Source of the DNA: Calycina herbarum
Taxonomy: Eukaryota > Ascomycota > Leotiomycetes > Helotiales > Pezizellaceae
Assembly: GCA_001414485.1 (NCBI GenBank)
Contig: LLEY01000004.1
Coordinates: 372,001-436,000 of the forward strand
Length of the DNA stretch: 64,000 nt
Direction of reading: 5' to 3'
Shown here: positions 12,723 through 59,308 of the stretch, piece after piece
How positions within the stretch are numbered: position 1 is the first letter of the stretch
Layout of the letters: each line of letters begins with the position of its first letter
Position numbers and translations under genes: made by a program
The notes under the pieces: model-generated
Database searches by the model: none
What the model was told of the DNA's origin: nothing
The model's input: the letters and a program-made list of their open reading frames with translations, nothing else

Positions 12723-14551
12723 TCACGAGGAAGCAGAACCCCCACCTGCCAAAATCGCGAGATTGGGGACTACTGGTCCATATGTGATCTTAATCCCTAT
12801 GCTTACAAGGGTCAGCTGAAATTCCGAGATATGGAATATAAAGGGATGTAAAGTAAAACTTACCGGTATCTCTTCGTGCCTTTCTTTTCATGTCATCGTC
12901 TTCTGACGCAGCTCCCTATTAATGTGTTAGTTGATTCAATTTATATACGCTTTGAGCAGACATACACCTGTAGCTTGAGCGGCAGGGGCAGCAGCGGCGG
13001 CGCTCTTCTTGGGAGCTGCGCTCTTTTTAGCTGGGGCGGCTCCTGCGCCACTAATTCAATGTTAGCATTACCATACAATCGGCAGTGGTGGTCTCGCGAT
13101 GAACGAAACCAGGTGTTCCAGCTTTCTAGGGCAATTCAAGTAAATTATCCCAAATGCTTAGAACAATCAACTTGAATTGTTCTATACTATCTGGGTTAAT
13201 ACATTGGATTGTTCTAGAAAGTTAGAACAACGAGAGGTGTTTACTGTCACTTTTATTGTCCCTCGTGTGGAGGTGTACTCACGTTGCCGCAGCCACTCCT
13301 GCACCATTTCCAGCGCTCTTCTTTGCTGCACCGCCACTGGATGAGTGTTAGTAGATGCAAGGGAAATTGAAATAACTCTTCTTACGTGGCTCCTGCAGCA
13401 CCAGCTCCGTTTCCGGCACTTTTCTTTGCTGGTGCTCCGCTAATGAGACATATTAGCTCAGTTCATTCGAGGTGTTCGGTAGCTTCGATAGCAAGATTGA
13501 TCGACATGCAGAGAGAACACTTACGTTGCAGCAGCAGCTCCAGCACCGTTTCCAGCGCTCTTTTTTGCAGCTCCTCCACTATGCAGATATTAGTTACATA
13601 TCACCACATAACAAAAAACCCCTTCTAAGTTAGTTTATCCGAGGAGGGAGGTAGTCTTACGTTGCTGCAGCAGCTCCAGCACCGTTTCCAGCGCTCTTCT
13701 TTGCAGCGCCTCCACTATGTGAATATTAGTTTTATACTACCATATAACAACCATATAACAAAGAACCCCTTCTAAGATGGTCCATCCGAGGAGGGAGATA
13801 GTCTTACGTGGCAGCAGCAGCTCCAGCACCGTTTCCAGCGCTCTTCTTTGCGGCTCCTCCACTATGCAAACATTAGTTTCATATCACTACATAACAAAGA
13901 ACCCCTTCTAAGATGGTCCATCCGAGGAGGGAGGTGGTCTTACGTGGCAACAGCAGCTCCAGCACCGTTTCCAGCGCTCTTCTTTGCAGCGCCTCCACTA
14001 TGTAAATATTAGTTTTATATCACCACATAACAAAAACCCCTTCTAAGGTGGTTCATCCGAGGAGGGGGGTAGTCTTACGTGGCAGCAGCAGCTCCAGCAC
14101 CGTTTCCAGCGCTCTTCTTTGCGGCTCCTCCACTATGCAAATATTAGTTTTATATCACCACATAACAAAAACCCCTTCTAAGGTGGTTCATCCGAGGAGG
14201 GGGGTAGTCTTACGTGGCAGCAGCAGCTCCTGCTCCATTTCCGGCGCTTTTCTTCGCTGGAGCACCACTAGATTGATATGTCAGTCCAAAGGCCACGTGA
14301 ACAATTTGAATCAACTGCAATATCACTCACGTGGCTCCAGCAGCCCCAGCTTTCGTAGGAGTGGCAGCTTGTCTTCTCTCGAGAAATCTTTTTCCGAAAT
14401 CAACAACCGCAAAGTTACTCCTTACCACGATAGGTTCTGCCTGTCTAACCTCGAGAAGATCATCCTGTCTAACCTCGTGCTCTAATGGTGCTGAGAAGGC
14501 TGTCATGGCGAAAGCGACCAAGGCCACAGAAGTGAATGTCTGTCCACGCAT
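12723..14551 (-). CDS. Secreted Gly/Ala/Lys repeat protein encoded by tandem duplicated 54-bp exons
   Basis: Twelve exons can be placed. Exon 1 (14551-14331) codes a signal peptide (MRGQTFTSVALVAFAMTAFSA), an acidic stretch and dibasic sites in FGKRFLERRQ. Eight exons of exactly 54 bp follow, starting at 14267, 14132, 13997, 13861, 13714, 13578, 13439 and 13336; each codes a variant of GGAAKKSAGNGAGAAAAT, begins with the third base of a Thr codon and keeps phase. Then come 13050-12968 (AKKSAAPKKSAAAA type), 12911-12864 (SEDDDMKRKARRDT) and 12796-12723 (ending GPVVPNLAILAGGGSASS). Total 285 residues, with consistent GT...AG phases throughout; the 12911 acceptor is the least certain. No known domain. 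Secretion is likely; function is unknown. It may be a repeat effector, cell-wall protein or precursor processed at dibasic sites. Confidence 0.72.
13112..13231. mobile_element. Foldback/MITE-like palindrome inside an intron of the repeat gene
   Basis: The two halves are imperfect reverse complements over about 55-60 bp around a centre near 13172. Arms include TTGTTCTA...TAGAACAA (13209-13230), AGAACAAT...ATTGTTCT (13160-13183) and CAATTCAAG...CTTGAATTG. The host intron (13051-13282) is 232 bp while its sister introns are 49-93 bp; removing the palindrome brings it near normal size. No transposase and no clear target duplication are seen. Confidence 0.6.
13283..14267 (-). repeat. Tandem ~135-bp exon-plus-intron repeat units
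   Basis: Eight exon units spaced 135, 135, 136, 147, 136, 139 and 103 bp apart. The exon parts are nearly identical. The introns between the first six units are also near-copies, sharing a core reading accccttctaaggtggttc and tccgagg on the plus strand. The duplicated unit is therefore genomic (exon plus intron), not a coding minisatellite alone. Outer units are more diverged than the central ones, as expected for unequal crossing-over. Confidence 0.85.
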
Positions 14552-30463: not shown

Positions 30464-32620
30464 TTTGGTGGAAGTTCTGCGATCGATTGTGGGATATCGA
30501 GGTTGGAAGGAGGGTTGAGGAGGAAAGGGTTTTGTATGATCGCGGGTTTTGGTTCGCGAGTTCAGTCGCGGGATAAGGTGAGGTAAGACGCTCTCGTGCC
30601 TTGGAGGGGTTGGTCTTTGAGGCTATGCTGTGGCTTATCCAATCTCTTGAGGTCCCTACAACGGAACGAACTCTTCTCTACCTCAAAAAAGATGTAGGTG
30701 AAGGAAGGTCGAGGGTTTGTCAAGTTTCGTTGCGAGCGATTTCAGCCACACTTTCCACGTTTTCGGGGGCTGGGAGATGACGGTGGTGTATTTGCCCCTC
30801 TTGTTCAAAATTCAGCTCAGCAGGGAACGTGAATGCTCGCCGAAGTTAGGTGAGATTTCTGGAGATTTCTTTGGGTTACATGTGTCTACGGCTATGAGAC
30901 TTTCTGGTGTCTATTTTCAGTTTGATTATTCACCATCATTATATTTATTGGGCCGAGGAAGTGACTGGAGCTCGAGGGAGGAACAGAGCTCTTTGTTTCA
31001 CTGAATTGAGGGGGAGGTTCGTGTGTTTTTGCGACAATTGCCCCGCAGCTGAGGAAAACGTTGGTGCGTCGATATCTTGGTGGCGTCATTTTTCTGGGCG
31101 TTTGGAGATATTTTGATGTGATTTTATCGCGAGTTTGGTTCTCGTTGGTTATTGTTTCCTGAAATATTGTTATTGTCGCTCGCTTCTCTGGTGTCTTCGT
31201 GTTTAGCTTGTTTGTTGGACTGAGTAGCCTATCTTACTTCAGGCTTCAACCTAGCAAAACCATGAGCTCGTAAAACCGTATGTTTATTTAAATAAACAAA
31301 AATGGAATCCAGGGAAAAATAAGAAAGAGACTGAATGTCTTTATTAGTTTTCTTTCCGTATTTCATCCGTTGAATCTCGACAGACTTGGTGCCACTATGG
31401 ACTGTTGCTGGACTGTTGCTGGACTGTCAAAGGAGATTTGTGGCAATAGGCAATCACACATGGTCTTATATTTATATCCTGCTGTTGGAAGCTATACTAT
31501 TCAAACACTCCTGATAAGTTCTATCGCATATCATATTCCAAAGCTCCAACAACGTGATTGTGGAGTTACCTGATTACAGCCCAACCAAGTCATGTTTTAT
31601 TGCGAGTCATAAATGAAGATCTTTTGGAATTCGTTGCACATCGCACTTTTGTGAGTCAGTTCAGATGTCACGATGTGAGCTGACTCTTGTAACATTAGTG
31701 ACACTGAGGCATATATTTCAAAATCATTCACAAGATCCACATCCAGAGAGAGAATCGAAGTTCATTCGTGGATATTTCAAACATCTACCACCATATTCTG
31801 CTTTCAATGTTCACTCAATTTGAATCAGTATTCTCCTTGCAAGTGCTATGACCTTCTATTTACCTATGAACCACATCATCTGTCTCAACCTCCTGCTCAA
31901 AGCTCCAAATATACACCAAAAAGAATACAGCAAAGAAATACAAAAGAGGGAGCAGCCAGTTCTACTACAGGAATAGTTGACATACTCGGGCTTCGCCAGA
32001 CAGATCACAAAGGATAAGCCAACTAGGCAGGGTACATCGTACATTGATCACAAGGACCAAGACAGCTGTACCGGAATCAACCAGGTAGACCACGGAGGAT
32101 CTTTGATTGATTCATGCCTGTGTCCTTCTTATTTGAGTCTATATTTATTTGTGACCCGAGGTATTTCCTGCTGCCAAGATTGGAGTGAATTGAAGGCTTC
32201 TTATATTACTAAAAATATTGCCTTTTTCGCTTGGACTCGTCCCTTATTCTGTCCGTTTTTCCTTCATTGAAATGGAGTGTTCTCAGGAGAATGGAGAAAT
32301 CGATTCCCTTCGTCTGAAAGCTTCCCGAACACTACCTAAAAATATTTTTGACTTATCCTAGACGCTTTCGTTCCATCTCAAAACAAAGTATGCGTTTGTG
32401 GAGCAATGACCAAGGATCAATACTTTTTTTCTATATCATATCTTAAACTTGATAATCCAATCCAAGAGACGCGTGTCTCCCATTTTTGTAATATATCCCT
32501 CAGGCGTAAAAGCCACCCATTATCCTTCCATTAACTTTCCATTAACTTTCCATTAACTTTCCATTAACTCCTCTCCCCTCCCTCCCCAACCCCCACCCCA
32601 TTTCCAGCGCCCTTTTTATA
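30464..32620. other. Intergenic
   Basis: About 2.2 kb. The left part is the WW-gene promoter. An 11-bp word (ggactgttgct) is repeated at about 31398-31425. No gene seen. Ends with a pyrimidine-rich stretch and the 11-bp tandem repeat at 32526-32569 downstream of the LtrA-like gene. Confidence 0.45.
32526..32569. repeat. Four tandem copies of TTCCATTAACT
   Basis: Perfect 11-bp direct repeats in four consecutive copies, just beyond the stop of the LtrA-like gene, so probably in its 3' flank. Confidence 0.9.
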
Positions 32621-42620: not shown

Positions 42621-45600
42621 ATGGCGCCCCTCCCCCTCGATACCGACGGTTCGGATACCCCGCCAATGTTACCTGACGCCGCAATGATCGAAGACGATAC
42701 ACCAGAAAACAGAACTCCACAAGAGGATGAAGGAGAGGTCGAAGATGAAGAGGGCATGCTCCCTCGGGACTATCAACAGAAGACTGCGTACTATGACTAT
42801 GTCGCGGACAAGCAATTGAGCCAGGCGGATGCAAAGCTATTCTACCAACGAAGTCAACAGGAAGGAAATAAGACTGGCGGAAGCAATTGGGGAAACTCGC
42901 AGAGCTCACCACAAGGAAGTCCAGTCATAATTCCCAGATCGATTCCAAATGGTTTCGAGGCGACCCAGACAGGTGTTCGTAGGTCAGACAGTGTCAACTC
43001 GGTAAAGAGTAGTGGAAATGTGCTATCTCCTAGGTTAGCGCTTCTATTCTGTGTCTGCGCGCTAATTAACATGCTAACTCTTTCGTAGCTCAGTCAGATA
43101 CAAACCAGCTTATCCAGTTGGAATATCGGACCCCAATAAACATCCTGAGAGCAACCTCATTCAAGATCCAGGTGCTGCAATCTCGCAAAGTCCAACTGAA
43201 CTCCATCGCGTAGATTCTCTCTTACGAGCCGACCGAGAAGCTAGAGAACACGCAGCGCACCCTTATCTTCCCCATGAAACGAAACCTTTATTGGAGACAG
43301 AAGGACTACATGGGGCAGGTGCGGGAGTTGGTGTAGGTCATGGCGTTGGCGGTTTTGCAGATAATGATGCTCAAATCACATCGGAGTTGAGAGAAATATA
43401 CTCAAACATTCAAAAGATATTGGACATTCGTCACAAATACATTCGCCTTTCTTTGCAACAAGATGGTGACAATCCAAAGGATGACCACAATTGGAATATA
43501 TACCCTCCCCCGCCAGAGCCTGCTTGGTATGAGGAGAAAGATCGTTACGGTACCGGTAATGCTGGGAGAGGAAGCCAGAATGCGAGCATGTCAAATAGCA
43601 TGGTTCTTGAGAAACCGCAAAGCAAGAGTAATGAAGGTAGTGTCCGGAACTTTAGCACGACAAGTCTAACTCAAATCCCACAAAGCCCTATTCTGGAGAA
43701 GAAGAAGAAGAAGCGCAAGCCTGGTGAGGATATTGGCGGAGACTTTGATATGGAAGAGCTACTACCCCTGCCAGGTCCTAGCGAAATGGTCTTTCGGATG
43801 GATGCAAGTAGCGTCTACCAAGTCTATGAAAACTCCAAGGCCGATGAGATTGACAGCCCTGTCCTCAATTTCCCCACCCTTCGAGATTTCTACAAAGACT
43901 TGGAAGCCATTCTTGATGTTTCTTCAGATGGCCCAAGCAAGAGTTTTGCCTTTCGTCGTCTACAATACCTTGAGGGCAAGTTCAATCTATACGTTCTTCT
44001 GAACGAGTACCAGGAAATGGCGGACAGCAAGAGAGTGCCTCACAGAGATTTCTACAATGTCAGAAAGGTCGATACGCACGTTCACCACTCTGCCTGTATG
44101 AATCAAAAGCATCTGCTTCGATTTATCAAGAGCAAGATGAAGAAGTGTCCCGATGAGGTGGTGATGTTCCGAGATGGGAAGCATCTTACGTTGCAAGAAG
44201 TCTTTCAGAGCATCAACTTGACATCCTACGATCTCAGTATTGATACGCTCGATATGCACGTAAGTCAATGTCGCAAGTAGACATATTTCGTGCAACTAAT
44301 TTCTTCAGGCTCATACGGATTCGTTCCATCGTTTCGATAAATTCAATCTCAAGTACAACCCTATTGGAGAATCTCGTTTGAGAACTATCTTTTTGAAGAC
44401 GGATAATTTCATCAATGGAAGATACTTGGCGGAGATTACCAAGGAAGTGATTTCTGATTTGGAGTCTAGTAAATACCAGATGGCGGAGTGGCGTATATCA
44501 GTATATGGCGTAAGTCAGCTTCTCAGGGCAATTTTCTTTTTTTCATTGTCTCCAAGGTCGCTGGACAACCTACCCGATCGTTTCAAAAATTGAGGAAATT
44601 TTAATATCAGCATCATACCACATCTCAAACTTATCTGCTTCAATAAACTAACTCCTTTTAGCGAAGCATCGATGAATGGGATAAATTGGCCGCTTGGGTC
44701 GTGGATAACAAGCTTTTCTCGCACAATGTTCGCTGGCTAATTCAAGTACCTCGTCTATTCGACGTCTACAAAGCAACTGGCTTGATGGAGAATTTCGAGC
44801 AGGTTATCAAAAATCTATTCCAGCCGCTGTTTGAAGTCACCAAAGACCCTACAAGTCACCCAAAGTTGCATATCTTCTTACAGAGAGTCATTGGCTTTGA
44901 TAGTGTCGACGATGAAAGTAAACCAGAACGAAGATTGTACAGAAAGTTTCCTGTGCCCAACGAGTGGGACTCAAAGCAAAATCCTCCTTACAGTTACTGG
45001 ATTTATTACCTTCTCGCGAACATGGCTTCGTTGAATGTATGGAGAAAGCAACGTGGATTCAACACATTCCTGCTACGTCCTCATGCTGGCGAAGCTGGTG
45101 ATACCGATCATTTGGCAGCAGCTGTCCTCGGTTGTCACAGTATCAGTCACGGACTGTTGCTACGCAAAGTTCCTCTGCTTCAATACATTTTCTATCTCGA
45201 ACAAATTGGAGTAGCGATGTCTCCTCTCAGTAACAACGCCTTGTTCTTGGCATATGAGAGAAACCCTTTCCTGAGTTATTTCAAGCGTGGTTTGAATGTC
45301 TCCCTTTCTACCGATGATCCTCTTCAATTTGCATTTACCAAGGAGCCTCTTATTGAAGAGTACTCTGTGGCTGCGCAGATCTACAAGCTTAGTGCCGTGG
45401 ATATGTGTGAGCTGGCGAAGAATTCTGTCACGCAGAGTGGGTATGAACATGCTGTTAAGCAGAGATGGCTTGGTCGGTTTTATAACTTGCAGGGTGTTAA
45501 GGGTAATGTTATGGCGAAGAGTAATGTGCCGAATATTCGGGAGGGATTTAGGCATGAGACTTTGTTGCAGGAACATGCTATGTGAGTTCTCCCCCACTTA

Positions 45601-46238
45601 ACCCATCAAGAGAAAATATAGCTAACAATTATAGGATTGAACGCTACACGGCAGTCGCAACACCAATAGCCACAGCACTAAACCCCACGACCGAACAAAC
45701 CAACCCCAAACCACCCTTCTCCCCCGCATCCTCCAAAATTGCCCACGCCTCCTCCAGTGGTCCAGAATCAGTAACATCACCCTACCAACCTTTCCCCGCG
45801 CAAGCAGCACGTATCCCGCACTCCCACTCGCAGGTCCAACTCGACGGGTTATCCCAAGGTACCAGTCAAGCTCACGGGTCCCCCCTTCAACAGGCTTCCT
45901 CGATGGATCATCGGGTCTTGTCCTCACCACATTTGAATAGTACGCCTTCGTGGCCACTGGAGAGTTTTGGCGATTTGAGGTTGAGTGGGAGTGAGCCGAA
46001 GATTTTCCCGGGGTTGGTTAGTAGGACGCAACGGAAGGATAGCTTGAATGTTAGGAAGGGGAGTGGGAGTGAGGGGGATTTTGAGGGGTATTATGGGAAG
46101 GGGGATGGGAGTGGGGGAGGGGGAAGTGTTGGCGGGATGGGGCATACGAGGAAGGGGAGGAGTGCTAGTAGTTTGAGGGAGGTTGGGGGGATTGTTGATG
46201 AGGAGCAGGAGGCTGAGAGTGATGGGGGGTCGAATTAG
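42621..46238 (+). CDS. AMD1: AMP deaminase
   Basis: Five exons, 42621-43033, 43089-44259, 44309-44509, 44662-45581 and 45635-46238; 1102 residues. Converts AMP to IMP and ammonia in the purine nucleotide cycle. Catalytic features: zinc ligands in [19 protein letters not shown] (about residue 465), [39 protein letters not shown] and the second metal/catalytic block [20 protein letters not shown] (about residue 810). The final exon is a Pro/Ser/Gly-rich tail of about 200 residues beyond the conserved [10 protein letters not shown], and the N-terminal ~140 residues are acidic and disordered. Only 236 bp follow the previous gene's stop, so its promoter is compact or overlaps the upstream 3' UTR. 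Confidence 0.95.
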
Positions 46239-49200
46239 AGGAGAATGTTGAGTTGGTTGGGGGTGGTGAAGTGTGGTGGATGATTTGTACCATTCGTTTG
46301 CGTCTCTTTCCTGGCTTGACCTGCCTGGGTCTTGCTTGGTCCGATTTGGCCTGGTTTGGAGCCTGATAGAGAGATGTGCGCAAGGCAAGACTTCTGTTTT
46401 TCGAGGGACGGACGATGAAAAATGAGATATGATAGATTATTGCGTAGAGTTATACGGCCAGGTCAGCCTGGTATACTGGGCGTTTTTTTGTTTGTTTCAA
46501 TAGGTGGAAATAAAAATAGAATTACAAACTTTCTTCCGCTTTTGAGTGAGTGTGTGGCGGATGCGTGAAGGGTCAGAACGGTGTAGAAAGTGTAACCAAG
46601 ATGGCGAGGAATACCGAAAGCTCTGGCGGATCCACAGAGCATTATATGAGCGAGGTCGATTTCCCCATTCGTTCGAACATTTCTCCCTCGGTATGCGAGG
46701 TTATTTAGAGGCGAGCGCCTTGATCTTGATTTGGGGGTATATAGTGAGGAGGTGTTAAATAGAGAAGTAACTATGAGTAAAGCAAGGCAGACACATCGGA
46801 CCCTCTTTCATTGCTCGTCGATTTTTAATTTGGGGATACATATGTAACGATACAATCTACGCGCACCCCTCTTTTTTGCTGAAAGTTTTACTTGAGTAAC
46901 TTGAGTTCTTTCGTTTCATGGAGCATTCTGTTTTGGTGCTGTTTACTTGGGCATTTGGGGTGTCTTTATTTTGCTGTCGGGTTTTGGGGTTGTTGTCGAT
47001 TTGGGTTCTTGCGTTTGTTGCGGGATTTTGGAACGTGGGGTATATTCTGGAGCGAGGTTATGGGTGTGAAGAGATGGAGGTTCTTGGGATGTGAAGAGGT
47101 GGATTGTGATGTAGGTATGTGGGTCACACGCAACCATAAGAAACTCGTGCAGACATGCTGGACGTTCGTAATAAAACCTTTCATTGAGTTAGTGTGTTGG
47201 TATTTATGTTGAAGGTGAGAGAATTGGGGGATGCTCTGTGAACTTTCGAGTATAGAAATAGTCAAGGGGAAATTGAAATTTATTTTGAGAGGGGTTGGAT
47301 GGATTGAAAGGTTAGTTTCTTTTTGAGGAAGAGAGGAGGCTTATAGGGTATAGGTATATGTAAAGTAAGAGAGAGAGGGGTGGTGGGATGTAATGGGTGG
47401 GCGCCTTGACATCACGTTGGTTTAACTAGGTGAGAGAAGATCCAGTTTGAACCTCATCCAAGGTCCGATATAAATAGAAAAGTAGCTTAGTTCAAAACAA
47501 AGCATAACTACAACAACCAATAGCGAGAATATTAGGGGGAAGATCGAATTTTGAAGAAGAGGCTGAGAGCTTTCTTCACGCTTTTATAAAGAGATATGAA
47601 AGAAGTTTCATAGTATCATATAGAGGTTTAGTGATTTTGTAACTGCATATAACTCTTTGCAGTCTTCCCCGGGGGGGGGGTTCTCGCTCAGATTATTTCT
47701 AGCCCTAAGCGACGAAGTGTCACGTAACTCCTTGAGTCGAGACATGATAATTCAGAGCACCCGCTTTTTTGTTTGCTGATCTAAAAAAGGAAGCTTAGTC
47801 TACCTTTCAAGAAGACTGAAGGTAAGTAGTCCTTTGCCCAAGATAGCATGGGAAGTCTTTGAGAATTCTAGGAGAATCACATCCTGAATGAGTAAAATAA
47901 AGTAACCAGCAAATTGTGTGTCAAGCTCGAAAAATCAATGACGACTTACTCTAACTGCTATATATGCATGCTTTCTATGCCATTCTTCCATTTGATCCAT
48001 CATCACCTTCCTCACCTTCCTTTAAAACACGGATTTATGCAAGACGACCCTCTATAAATTTAGAAAAGCCAGCCGAATCTTCTAAAACAAACCCGTGGAA
48101 GAATACGAAGTCACTTATACTGCAATTTGGTGAACTGTTGATTCGAATTAACCATAGTGAAGAATCACGTCTGGATGAAGAAACGACTGGTATATTACTA
48201 GAGTTGATCTAATTATATCTATTATTAGATCTCAATTCTAAAAGAAGAGACCGCAGAGCTTCAAAACGACAGTATAGGTAAATCGATAGTGGTATTTCAA
48301 CTTATTAAGCTCAGTGACAACTAAATGGTTTTATTTTTAACATATAATACCTCGCTACTAAAAGAGCGATATCAAATTCAATAGTCTTATCCCACTCTTA
48401 TATCCGCAAAAGATACTCCTAGTACGTCTCCGTTGATATCGAGAAGTTATATAGCTCTTAGAATGGCTAGTTGTAATATTCTAACCTAGCTCTTCTAAGA
48501 GTCGGAGTTCGGTTAAATTAGTATACTAATAGTGACTATTTCTAAATAATATCTCTAAGTAGGATTCCAAGTATATATATTCTAAAGATATTTCCAAAGA
48601 AATTCCTGAAAGTAAACATATCTAAAGTGAAAGTAATATTTCCGAAGTATTATTTCCGGCCTAATATCTCCGAATCAGATAAGTCCAAGATATATTCCCA
48701 AACGATAATTCCAAGTAAATATCTCCGAACAAAGATATCCGAGCTTATTTCCGAGCAGTTTATCTCTAAAGTATTTATTTCCGAGTATATATTTCCGAGC
48801 AAGTGAGTTAATTCCAAGTAAGTATTTCCGAGATACTTCTAAGTAAGGTTTCTAGTAAACAAATCCACGTCAATAATAGAAAAATACTCTATAAGCTCGG
48901 ATATAATACTTTAATATAGCTTACATCTGCTCATATTTTTCGTATATTTTTGCGACCCTCTGATGTTATGTTATACACGTTGCCGCTTTTCATAGAGTAG
49001 CCTATTTAATACCACTTCTAATTTCTACAAGGTGCTTGTCAAGAAGAAGATTTCCAGAACCTCATAGCGAAGTAGTTAGGGATTACACCTTCCTTCCTAC
49101 TCTAAAAAAGACATAAATTTGTACAAAGAAGTCGGGGGTTATTCCAAACAAAGCTCCTCAAAAAATCCATAGAAAATGCTAACGATTTTTCATTTTCCCT

Positions 49201-57640: not shown

Positions 57641-57868
57641 TACGATAGTCTATAAATATGAATAATGTGAAACAGAAGCAAGTATAAACATAACAATTAG
57701 ATTTAATTTGAGTTGTAAGGAAGGTGTATGAAGTGAAGATGTTGGCGGGGTCATGGAATATCTTCGGATACACTGTTTTCAGGGACCTTCAATTGCTAGC
57801 GAGCTTGAGAACACAACTCAACAACACCAAGCTCTAGATCTCGTAAACAGAGCCAGCATAGCGCAATA

Positions 57869-59308
57869 ATGTCCGATCCACTGTACGAATTACTAGTTCC
57901 TTATTTTAACAAACCACCTCCGCGCCCACCACCCAGCTCCAATGACCCAACAACGAATACCTACCTCGCTCGACTCACGACTCTCCCCCTCAACTCTCTC
58001 ACCACCAGCGAGCCCCAATCTCTCACCCAATCGACACATTCATTGCTCCTCTCCCTCCAGGCACTTTCCAAACGATCGCATAAATCTATAATCGACTCCT
58101 CCACCCACCTCTCTACTCTAAGCACCACCCTACCCAGCCTCGCGCAATCCACAGCCTCTCTACGAGATGCGCTCCCCAAACTCGACGATGCAGCAATCAA
58201 TTTCAGCGAGAACTATAACCTACGAGCCGAAAACACCAATCCCCTATTAGACCGAAGAAGAAAAGCCCTTCTTCTATCCCGAAATATCGATCGTCTATCC
58301 GATGTCCTAGATCTCCCCGCCCTCCTCTCCTCTGCGATATCCTCCTCCTCGAATACAACAGCACCAAACACAAATACCAATGCCTCAAACGCAACATTAA
58401 ATTATGCTTCCGCACTAGACCTCAATGCGCATATCAAGCGCCTGCATGGCTTATACCCCACCTCTCCCCTCATAACGAGCGTCAGCCTCCAAGCCGAAAC
58501 CGCGATGCAGGATATGTGTACAAACTTGATAGCTAGTCTGCGAGGCAACAGCCTGAAGCTGGCAAGTGCAATGAGGACAATAAGTTGGTTACGAAGAGTA
58601 GCCCCGGAATTAAACTCTACACCAACCAATACCTCCCTCTCCACAACAAGCTCAATATCCACAAGTTCAAGCAACGCCCGAGAAGGCGCCCTAGGCTCAC
58701 TCTTCCTCGTCTGTCGACTCTCCAATCTCTCACAGATGCTCTCCGCACTCTCACCCCTCCGAGAATTGGCAGATCAAGAAACTGCAAAGCTACTGGCACA
58801 AGGAAATCAAGGTTCCAAAGAAAAAAGTAAATGGGAAGGTGGTCAACAAACAGAACGCTACCTGAAACGATACATCGAGATTTTCCGTGAACAAAGTTTC
58901 GCGGTAGTAAGCATGTATCGCTCCATTTTCCCACCTCCAGCTGCAACACCCGAAGGCCTGAAAGGTGTAATTCCCGCTGCGGGAAAACAAGATCCTTTGC
59001 AACCTCTTCCTTCTGCACTGGGGACATTTCCTCAGAGATTGGTGGGTATGCTGGAAGAGACTTTACGGCAATATTTACCCAATGTTAGGGATAGGAGTTC
59101 GAGGGATAGTCTTTTGACTCAGGTTCTTTATTGTGCGGGCAGTTTGGGGAGGTTAGGTGGGGATTTTAGTTTGATCCTTGCGTTTTTGGGGGATGGTGAT
59201 GAGGAGGAGGGGGAGAGTGAAGATGACGAGGAGTGGGTGGAGGTTATTAGGAAACATAGGGTTTTGGCTGGGAGGTTGGAGTTGATGGTTGGGTCCAAGG
59301 ATCATTAG
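57869..59308 (+). CDS. COG8: Conserved oligomeric Golgi complex subunit 8
   Basis: A single intronless frame of 479 residues. Dor1-like family blocks: MSDPLYELLVPYF, QALSKRSHKSIIDSSTHLS, LDRRRKALLLSRNIDRLSDV, NYASALDLNAHIKRLHGLYP, TNLIASLRGNSLKLASAMRT with ISWLRRVAPEL, EGALGSLFLVCRLSNL and QQTERYLKRYIEIFREQSFA with VVSMYRSIFP. COG8 belongs to lobe B of the COG tether, which captures retrograde vesicles at the Golgi. Ser/Thr/Asn-rich low-complexity inserts interrupt the blocks near residues 168 and 255. An acidic stretch (DGDEEEGESEDDEEW) sits near the C-terminus. Confidence 0.92.
   Translation: MSDPLYELLVPYFNKPPPRPPPSSNDPTTNTYLARLTTLPLNSLTTSEPQSLTQSTHSLLLSLQALSKRSHKSIIDSSTHLSTLSTTLPSLAQSTASLRDALPKLDDAAINFSENYNLRAENTNPLLDRRRKALLLSRNIDRLSDVLDLPALLSSAISSSSNTTAPNTNTNASNATLNYASALDLNAHIKRLHGLYPTSPLITSVSLQAETAMQDMCTNLIASLRGNSLKLASAMRTISWLRRVAPELNSTPTNTSLSTTSSISTSSSNAREGALGSLFLVCRLSNLSQMLSALSPLRELADQETAKLLAQGNQGSKEKSKWEGGQQTERYLKRYIEIFREQSFAVVSMYRSIFPPPAATPEGLKGVIPAAGKQDPLQPLPSALGTFPQRLVGMLEETLRQYLPNVRDRSSRDSLLTQVLYCAGSLGRLGGDFSLILAFLGDGDEEEGESEDDEEWVEVIRKHRVLAGRLELMVGSKDH

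Follow-up and report, generated by a model that had tools for sequence, protein, structure and literature searches.

The window, i.e., the whole stretch of 64,000 nucleotides of the Calycina herbarum genome considered in this work, harbors on its minus strand (14551-12790) a predicted gene of 12 exons, eight of which are exactly 54 bp long (Table 1). The reading frame opens with an ATG at 14551 and closes with a TAA at 12790; joining all the predicted exons gives a coding sequence of 816 bases, stop included, and a product of 271 residues. From the DNA sequence alone, this predicted gene is convincing, and its product could gain or lose length in whole blocks of 18 residues.

Table 1. Predicted exons and introns of the repeat gene, in the order of transcription (positions in the window).
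Feature	Positions	Strand	Length (bp)	Remarks
Exon 1	14331..14551	-	221	Signal-peptide-like N-terminus (residues 1-21); pro-region; ends KAGAAGAT
Intron 1	14268..14330	-	63	GTGAGT..TCTAG; CTGAC motif; unlike core introns
Repeat exon 2 (unit 1)	14214..14267	-	54	GAPAKKSAGNGAGAAAAT; phase 2-2
Core intron 2	14133..14213	-	81	
Repeat exon 3 (unit 2)	14079..14132	-	54	Identical to exon 5
Core intron 3	13998..14078	-	81	1 difference from intron 2
Repeat exon 4 (unit 3)	13944..13997	-	54	
Core intron 4	13862..13943	-	82	
Repeat exon 5 (unit 4)	13808..13861	-	54	
Core intron 5	13715..13807	-	93	Genome search matched this array only
Repeat exon 6 (unit 5)	13661..13714	-	54	
Core intron 6	13579..13660	-	82	
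Repeat exon 7 (unit 6)	13525..13578	-	54	
Intron 7	13440..13524	-	85	Diverged; marginal likeness to core introns
Repeat exon 8 (unit 7)	13386..13439	-	54	GAPAKKSAGNGAGAAGAT
Intron 8	13337..13385	-	49	Diverged
Repeat exon 9 (unit 8)	13283..13336	-	54	GGAAKKSAGNGAGVAAAT
Intron 9	13051..13282	-	232	Contains repeated element (~13114-13267)
Exon 10	12966..13050	-	85	GAGAAPAKKSAAPKKSAAAAAPAAQATG
Exon 11	12864..12915	-	52	GAASEDDDMKRKARRDT; acidic-basic tail with KR, RK, RR
Intron 11	12863-12816	-	48	In frame; no stop inside; no CTRAY motif
Exon 12	12790..12815	-	26	To stop TAA

Each of the 54-bp exons encodes a variant of the 18-residue sequence GGAAKKSAGNGAGAAAAT, and all eight start and end in phase 2, splitting a Thr codon as AC/T (AC/C once). 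An earlier note on this DNA had claimed eight phase-symmetric exons of this length, each coding for one variant of the same peptide, and such exons are indeed seen at eight positions of the minus strand, from 14267-14214 to 13336-13283. Across them, 21 of the 54 columns vary, and 17 of these 21 are third codon positions, an excess whose hypergeometric P (~2e-9) should be taken as a guide only, the eight units being related by descent; because the variable sites are so placed, the repeat pattern does not appear to be a matter of chance. The mean pS over the 28 exon pairs is 0.45 and the mean pN is 0.041; judging from their codons, the 18 predicted residues are under purifying selection. The core exons (3-7) differ by 0-4 bases, and exons 2, 8, and 9 differ from them by 8-14 bases, mostly silent; in these edge exons, the peptide is nearly unchanged, with the divergence lying in the synonymous sites and in the adjacent introns.

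The GT and AG borders, which the same note had described as kept in every copy, are present in nine out of nine introns bordering the repeat exons. Introns 1-9 are all in phase 2, start with a GTAAGA, GTAAGT, or GTGAGT donor, and each carry a CTRAY motif that begins 15-17 nt before the 3' end. Moreover, if any one of them were retained, the reading frame would meet a stop codon spanning its donor (nine cases out of nine); failed splicing would therefore end the protein early, at the boundary of a unit. It had also been proposed that the intervening introns are themselves near-copies, with exon-plus-intron units of about 135 bp having been duplicated. This holds for the core of the array, where introns 2-6 show 1-14 differences per pair and TRF detected a 135-bp period (5.3 copies, score 1098), but not for its edges, whose introns are unlike the core ones: as many as 40, 95, and 43 out of 100 shuffled sequences were as good a match to the core introns as introns 1, 8, and 9, respectively, and the likeness of intron 7 is marginal (5 out of 100).

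Since introns 1-9 are all in phase 2, any run of the eight exons could be skipped in frame. This feature would suit a device for splice variation similar to the micro-exon genes of schistosomes, in which the skipping of symmetric exons would yield a ladder of secreted isoforms in steps of 18 residues; exon skipping is described for micro-exon genes (PMC4015677), and five transcript versions are described for SP7 of an arbuscular mycorrhizal fungus (PMC4617103). Such a device seems to us quite unlikely here: introns 1-7 revealed no structure beyond that of shuffled sequences (z from -0.36 to 0.91), so that the idea of structured introns steering the splicing is unsupported. Furthermore, the introns are short and have uniform, consensus-like splice sites, a combination that favors constitutive splicing.

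The presence of relatives was checked both in the same genome and in a protein database. In the former (68.8 Mb, 379 contigs), the whole protein retrieved six matches, all falling within the gene, with no second copy, and exon 1 retrieved this locus only; the KKSAGNGAG pattern, allowing up to two mismatches, occurred nine times, that is, in the eight units and in one two-mismatch site ~18 kb away on the same contig, which was taken as a chance match. Hence, no paralogue elsewhere in the genome emerged from the whole protein, exon 1, or the pattern. In the latter, none of the 7997 scored candidates sharing most words with the whole spliced protein reached E <= 1e-3, none of the 55 candidates for the N-terminal 75 residues reached E <= 10, and a Pfam scan of the protein gave no match at E <= 1. 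A search of this kind is weak for low-complexity proteins, limited in candidate length, and dependent on the gene models of others; therefore, it does not establish the absence of a relative. The database includes at least one protein from Hymenoscyphus albidus, which is the best match (91% identity over 96%) of the COG8-like protein encoded at 57809-59305 of the window; the next named matches of the latter come from other Helotiales, such as Halenospora and Amylocarpus.

As regards the history of the array, TRF returned, in addition to the period of 135 bp, one of 283 bp that corresponds to a dimer; this periodicity, together with the identity of exons 3 and 5, points to a recent tandem duplication. 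The array does not look like a simple assembly stutter, because the introns downstream of these two identical exons differ at nine positions. The lack of any relative or second copy in the searches described above would fit a decaying or never-transcribed array (a pseudogene) or an assembly artefact, and an assembly could in fact mis-count units as similar as these; nevertheless, we deem this explanation very improbable, given the strong third-position bias and the splice motifs found in every unit and, for the artefact, the differences among the units. We read the array as an old one, in which the peptide was kept while the introns drifted, and whose core was later re-amplified or homogenized. 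The end of exon 1 (KAGAAGAT) and the start of exon 10 (GAGAAPAKKSA) resemble the repeat unit, as would be expected if the array grew from a single repeat split by an intron. In agreement with the view that this is not a plain coding minisatellite, each unit lies on its own predicted exon, and exon-plus-intron modules were duplicated in the core.

The core intron was judged not to derive from an introner or a transposon, as intron 5 has five matches in the genome, all in this array. Intron 9 owes its length to the insertion of a repeated element (13114-13267) that has many genomic copies; those compared share inverted ends like CGTTGTTCTAACTTTCTAG, and the element looks MITE-like. Scoring 40 of 108 candidates gave 45 match rows outside the locus, with an identity of 70-93%, at least four of which represent the same place on the opposite strand.

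The 3' end was picked on the basis of open frame and splice-site likeness and is the least certain part of the gene model. Exon 11 has stops in both of its other frames. Intron 11 may be optional or false; in this case, a form of 287 residues, rather than 271, with a C-terminal insertion of 16 residues would be produced, the stop being at 12790 both in the full model and with the intron read through. If exon 11 is omitted, exon 12 is read in its first frame after exon 10 and the stop moves to 12723. The latter position had been given as the end of the gene; it was dropped as the main model, since it is reached only by leaving out the 52 bp of exon 11, and the different tail that ends there represents a possible alternative C-terminus.

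The predicted protein starts with a hydrophobic stretch (mean hydropathy of 2.4 over residues 9-17) followed by FSA-P. This signal-peptide-like start, judged from sequence and hydropathy alone, is compatible with the signal peptide placed ahead of the repeats in the earlier note, and the protein is probably secreted. The pro-region encoded by exon 1 carries KR at residues 54-55 and RR at residues 59-60, both of which would be cleavage sites for Kex2; two EVRQ motifs (HEVRQDD and LEVRQAE) lie ahead of these sites. KR and RR are confined to the pro-region and to the tail, and KR is found in no repeat unit; KK is invariant in all eight. The part following RR60 comprises 211 residues, including 85 Ala, 45 Gly, and 24 Lys, with a predicted pI of 10.57.

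The statement that no described family matches this gene is not supported in that form, in view of the schistosome precedent for tandem repeat exons and of the rule for Kex2-processed repeat proteins (KEPs) given in PMC7329392, i.e., at least three tandem repeats of at least 8 (and not more than 100) amino acids between KR, KK, RK, or RR. Applying the length and spacing limits of this rule, the protein yields eight fragments of 16-19 residues between KK pairs, all starting with SAGNGAG. The pipeline described in PMC6339444, which treats KR or RR as the usual Kex2 sites and KK as a lesser one, looks for at least three similar fragments from KR/RR cuts and turns to KK if these give fewer than four; cutting our sequence at KR/RR gives five unlike fragments, and at KK alone eight alike ones, so that the protein would probably be passed over, the KK step not being reached. 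Like the KEPs, this gene codes for a signal-peptide-like N-terminus, a pro-region with KR/RR, and tandem short repeats with a dibasic pair in between; it differs from them in that its repeats carry KK alone, each repeat has its own exon, the core introns are duplicated, and no homologue was found. The word "intron" is absent from the main text of PMC6339444 and PMC7329392, and occurs once in PMC9769878, in connection with the amplification of intron-less KEP sequences from cDNA.

Accepting the KEP likeness at face value, the gene would encode a peptide precursor that Kex2 cuts after each KK, releasing near-identical SAGNGAGAAAATGGAA signal peptides, and the modules would adjust the dosage. The eight tandem fragments fit the rule of PMC7329392, the KK pair is invariant, and it is listed among the Kex2 sites (PMC6339444); however, it is the lesser site that all eight units use, in a protein whose pro-region has KR and RR. 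Moreover, no DUF3328 domain was detected among the 20 out of 70 window ORFs scanned with Pfam, a weak argument, as a neighbor of this type accompanies only 22% of KEP genes (PMC7329392). We therefore regard the peptide precursor as possible, though doubtful.

As for the micro-exon genes, the likeness concerns proteins (secreted in schistosomes, probably so here) built from small exons, mostly with a length multiple of three, and repeats placed on tandem exons; small exons of this kind make up much of the coding sequence of our gene, too (8 x 54 bp, i.e., 432 of the 816 bases). Tandemly repeated exons of 81 bases were reportedly found in schistosomes by Davis et al. in 1988, a work cited by both descriptions of the micro-exon genes (PMC10526429, PMC4015677). 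The animal genes differ from the present one, in which a single unit gave rise to all eight exons and the introns are 49-93 bp long, except for one of 232 bp, to be compared with 100 to almost 5000 bp in schistosomes (PMC10526429). A fungal counterpart might be sought in the SP7-like effectors, which are fungal proteins with a signal peptide (here, a signal-peptide-like start) and hydrophilic repeats in variable numbers (PMC11333574, PMC4617103). That family is described as specific to arbuscular mycorrhizal fungi and as having one conserved intron ahead of the first repeat (PMC11333574). Here, an intron precedes the first repeat (intron 1) and another follows every repeat, and the host, judging from its COG8-like protein, is a helotialean fungus, belonging to a phylum other than that of the Glomeromycotina. 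Finally, fibrillar collagen genes contain many symmetric 54-bp exons encoding 18 residues; the exons are alike in this respect, but the Gly-X-Y pattern does not occur here, and no relation is claimed. In the open-licence literature searched, no account turned up of a secreted protein from fungi in which every repeat occupies its own exon. The principle is thus known from the precedents above, and the new part, as far as these searches show, is its use in a fungal KEP-like gene with duplicated introns.

On these grounds, we lean, with slightly better than even confidence, towards a helotialean gene whose product would be a secreted, cationic protein made of Ala/Gly/Lys repeats, the unit of repetition being the whole module of intron plus 54-bp exon. 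The array displays such modules and the mark of purifying selection; in its core, five similar units are flanked by more diverged ones, whose introns are unlike. In the case of a cationic repeat protein, the pre-mRNA would be spliced through every unit, and the protein would enter the secretory pathway, where Kex2 would remove the pro-region at RR60; this would release an intact chain of ~211 residues, in which a Lys pair recurs at intervals of 18. The chain might then bind to an anionic molecule (for example, a cell-wall polymer, an extracellular polysaccharide, or a nucleic acid), both partner and function being guesses from composition. Since the phase is the same at all unit borders, unequal crossing-over or conversion in the core would alter the protein in whole steps of 18 residues. 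Kex2 cuts preferentially after Arg. In our view, the conservation of KK and the lack of KR in the repeats speak for selection acting on Lys charge rather than on efficient cleavage by Kex2; on the same grounds, the intact cationic protein is favored, about twofold, over the peptide precursor.

It is unlikely, in our opinion, that exon-intron modules set both an isoform ladder and the strain-to-strain length of this secreted fungal protein, with recombination adding or removing modules and splicing choosing the number used. For the cationic repeat protein itself, the reading frame would be protected by splice phase and not by repeat length alone, since the unit consists of exon plus intron, and the core introns (81-93 bp) would give recombination more sequence to act on while leaving the residue count unchanged. 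Should strains vary in the number of units, the locus would represent a clean system in which to watch exon duplication in action. Gene prediction would easily miss genes of this type, and so, in turn, would the published KEP surveys based on annotated proteins.

With ORFs taken from stop to stop and a minimum of 130 aa, the window contains 70 of them; of the 20 scanned with Pfam, 14 matched a family and six did not. The families include Abp2, mitochondrial carrier, Sla1 domains, tubulin, short-chain dehydrogenase, LtrA, WD40, UAA transporter, AMP deaminase, TLC, and Dor1, and the neighboring genes are, from these matches, ordinary. A strong skew of G over C extends over positions 46000-47500 (0.80 at 46000-46249); it begins at the 3' end of the ORF at 45558-46238 and adjoins the AMP deaminase ORFs. 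A further short array of the type detected by TRF, with 4.8 copies of the 11-bp unit CCATTAACTTT, lies at 32517-32569.
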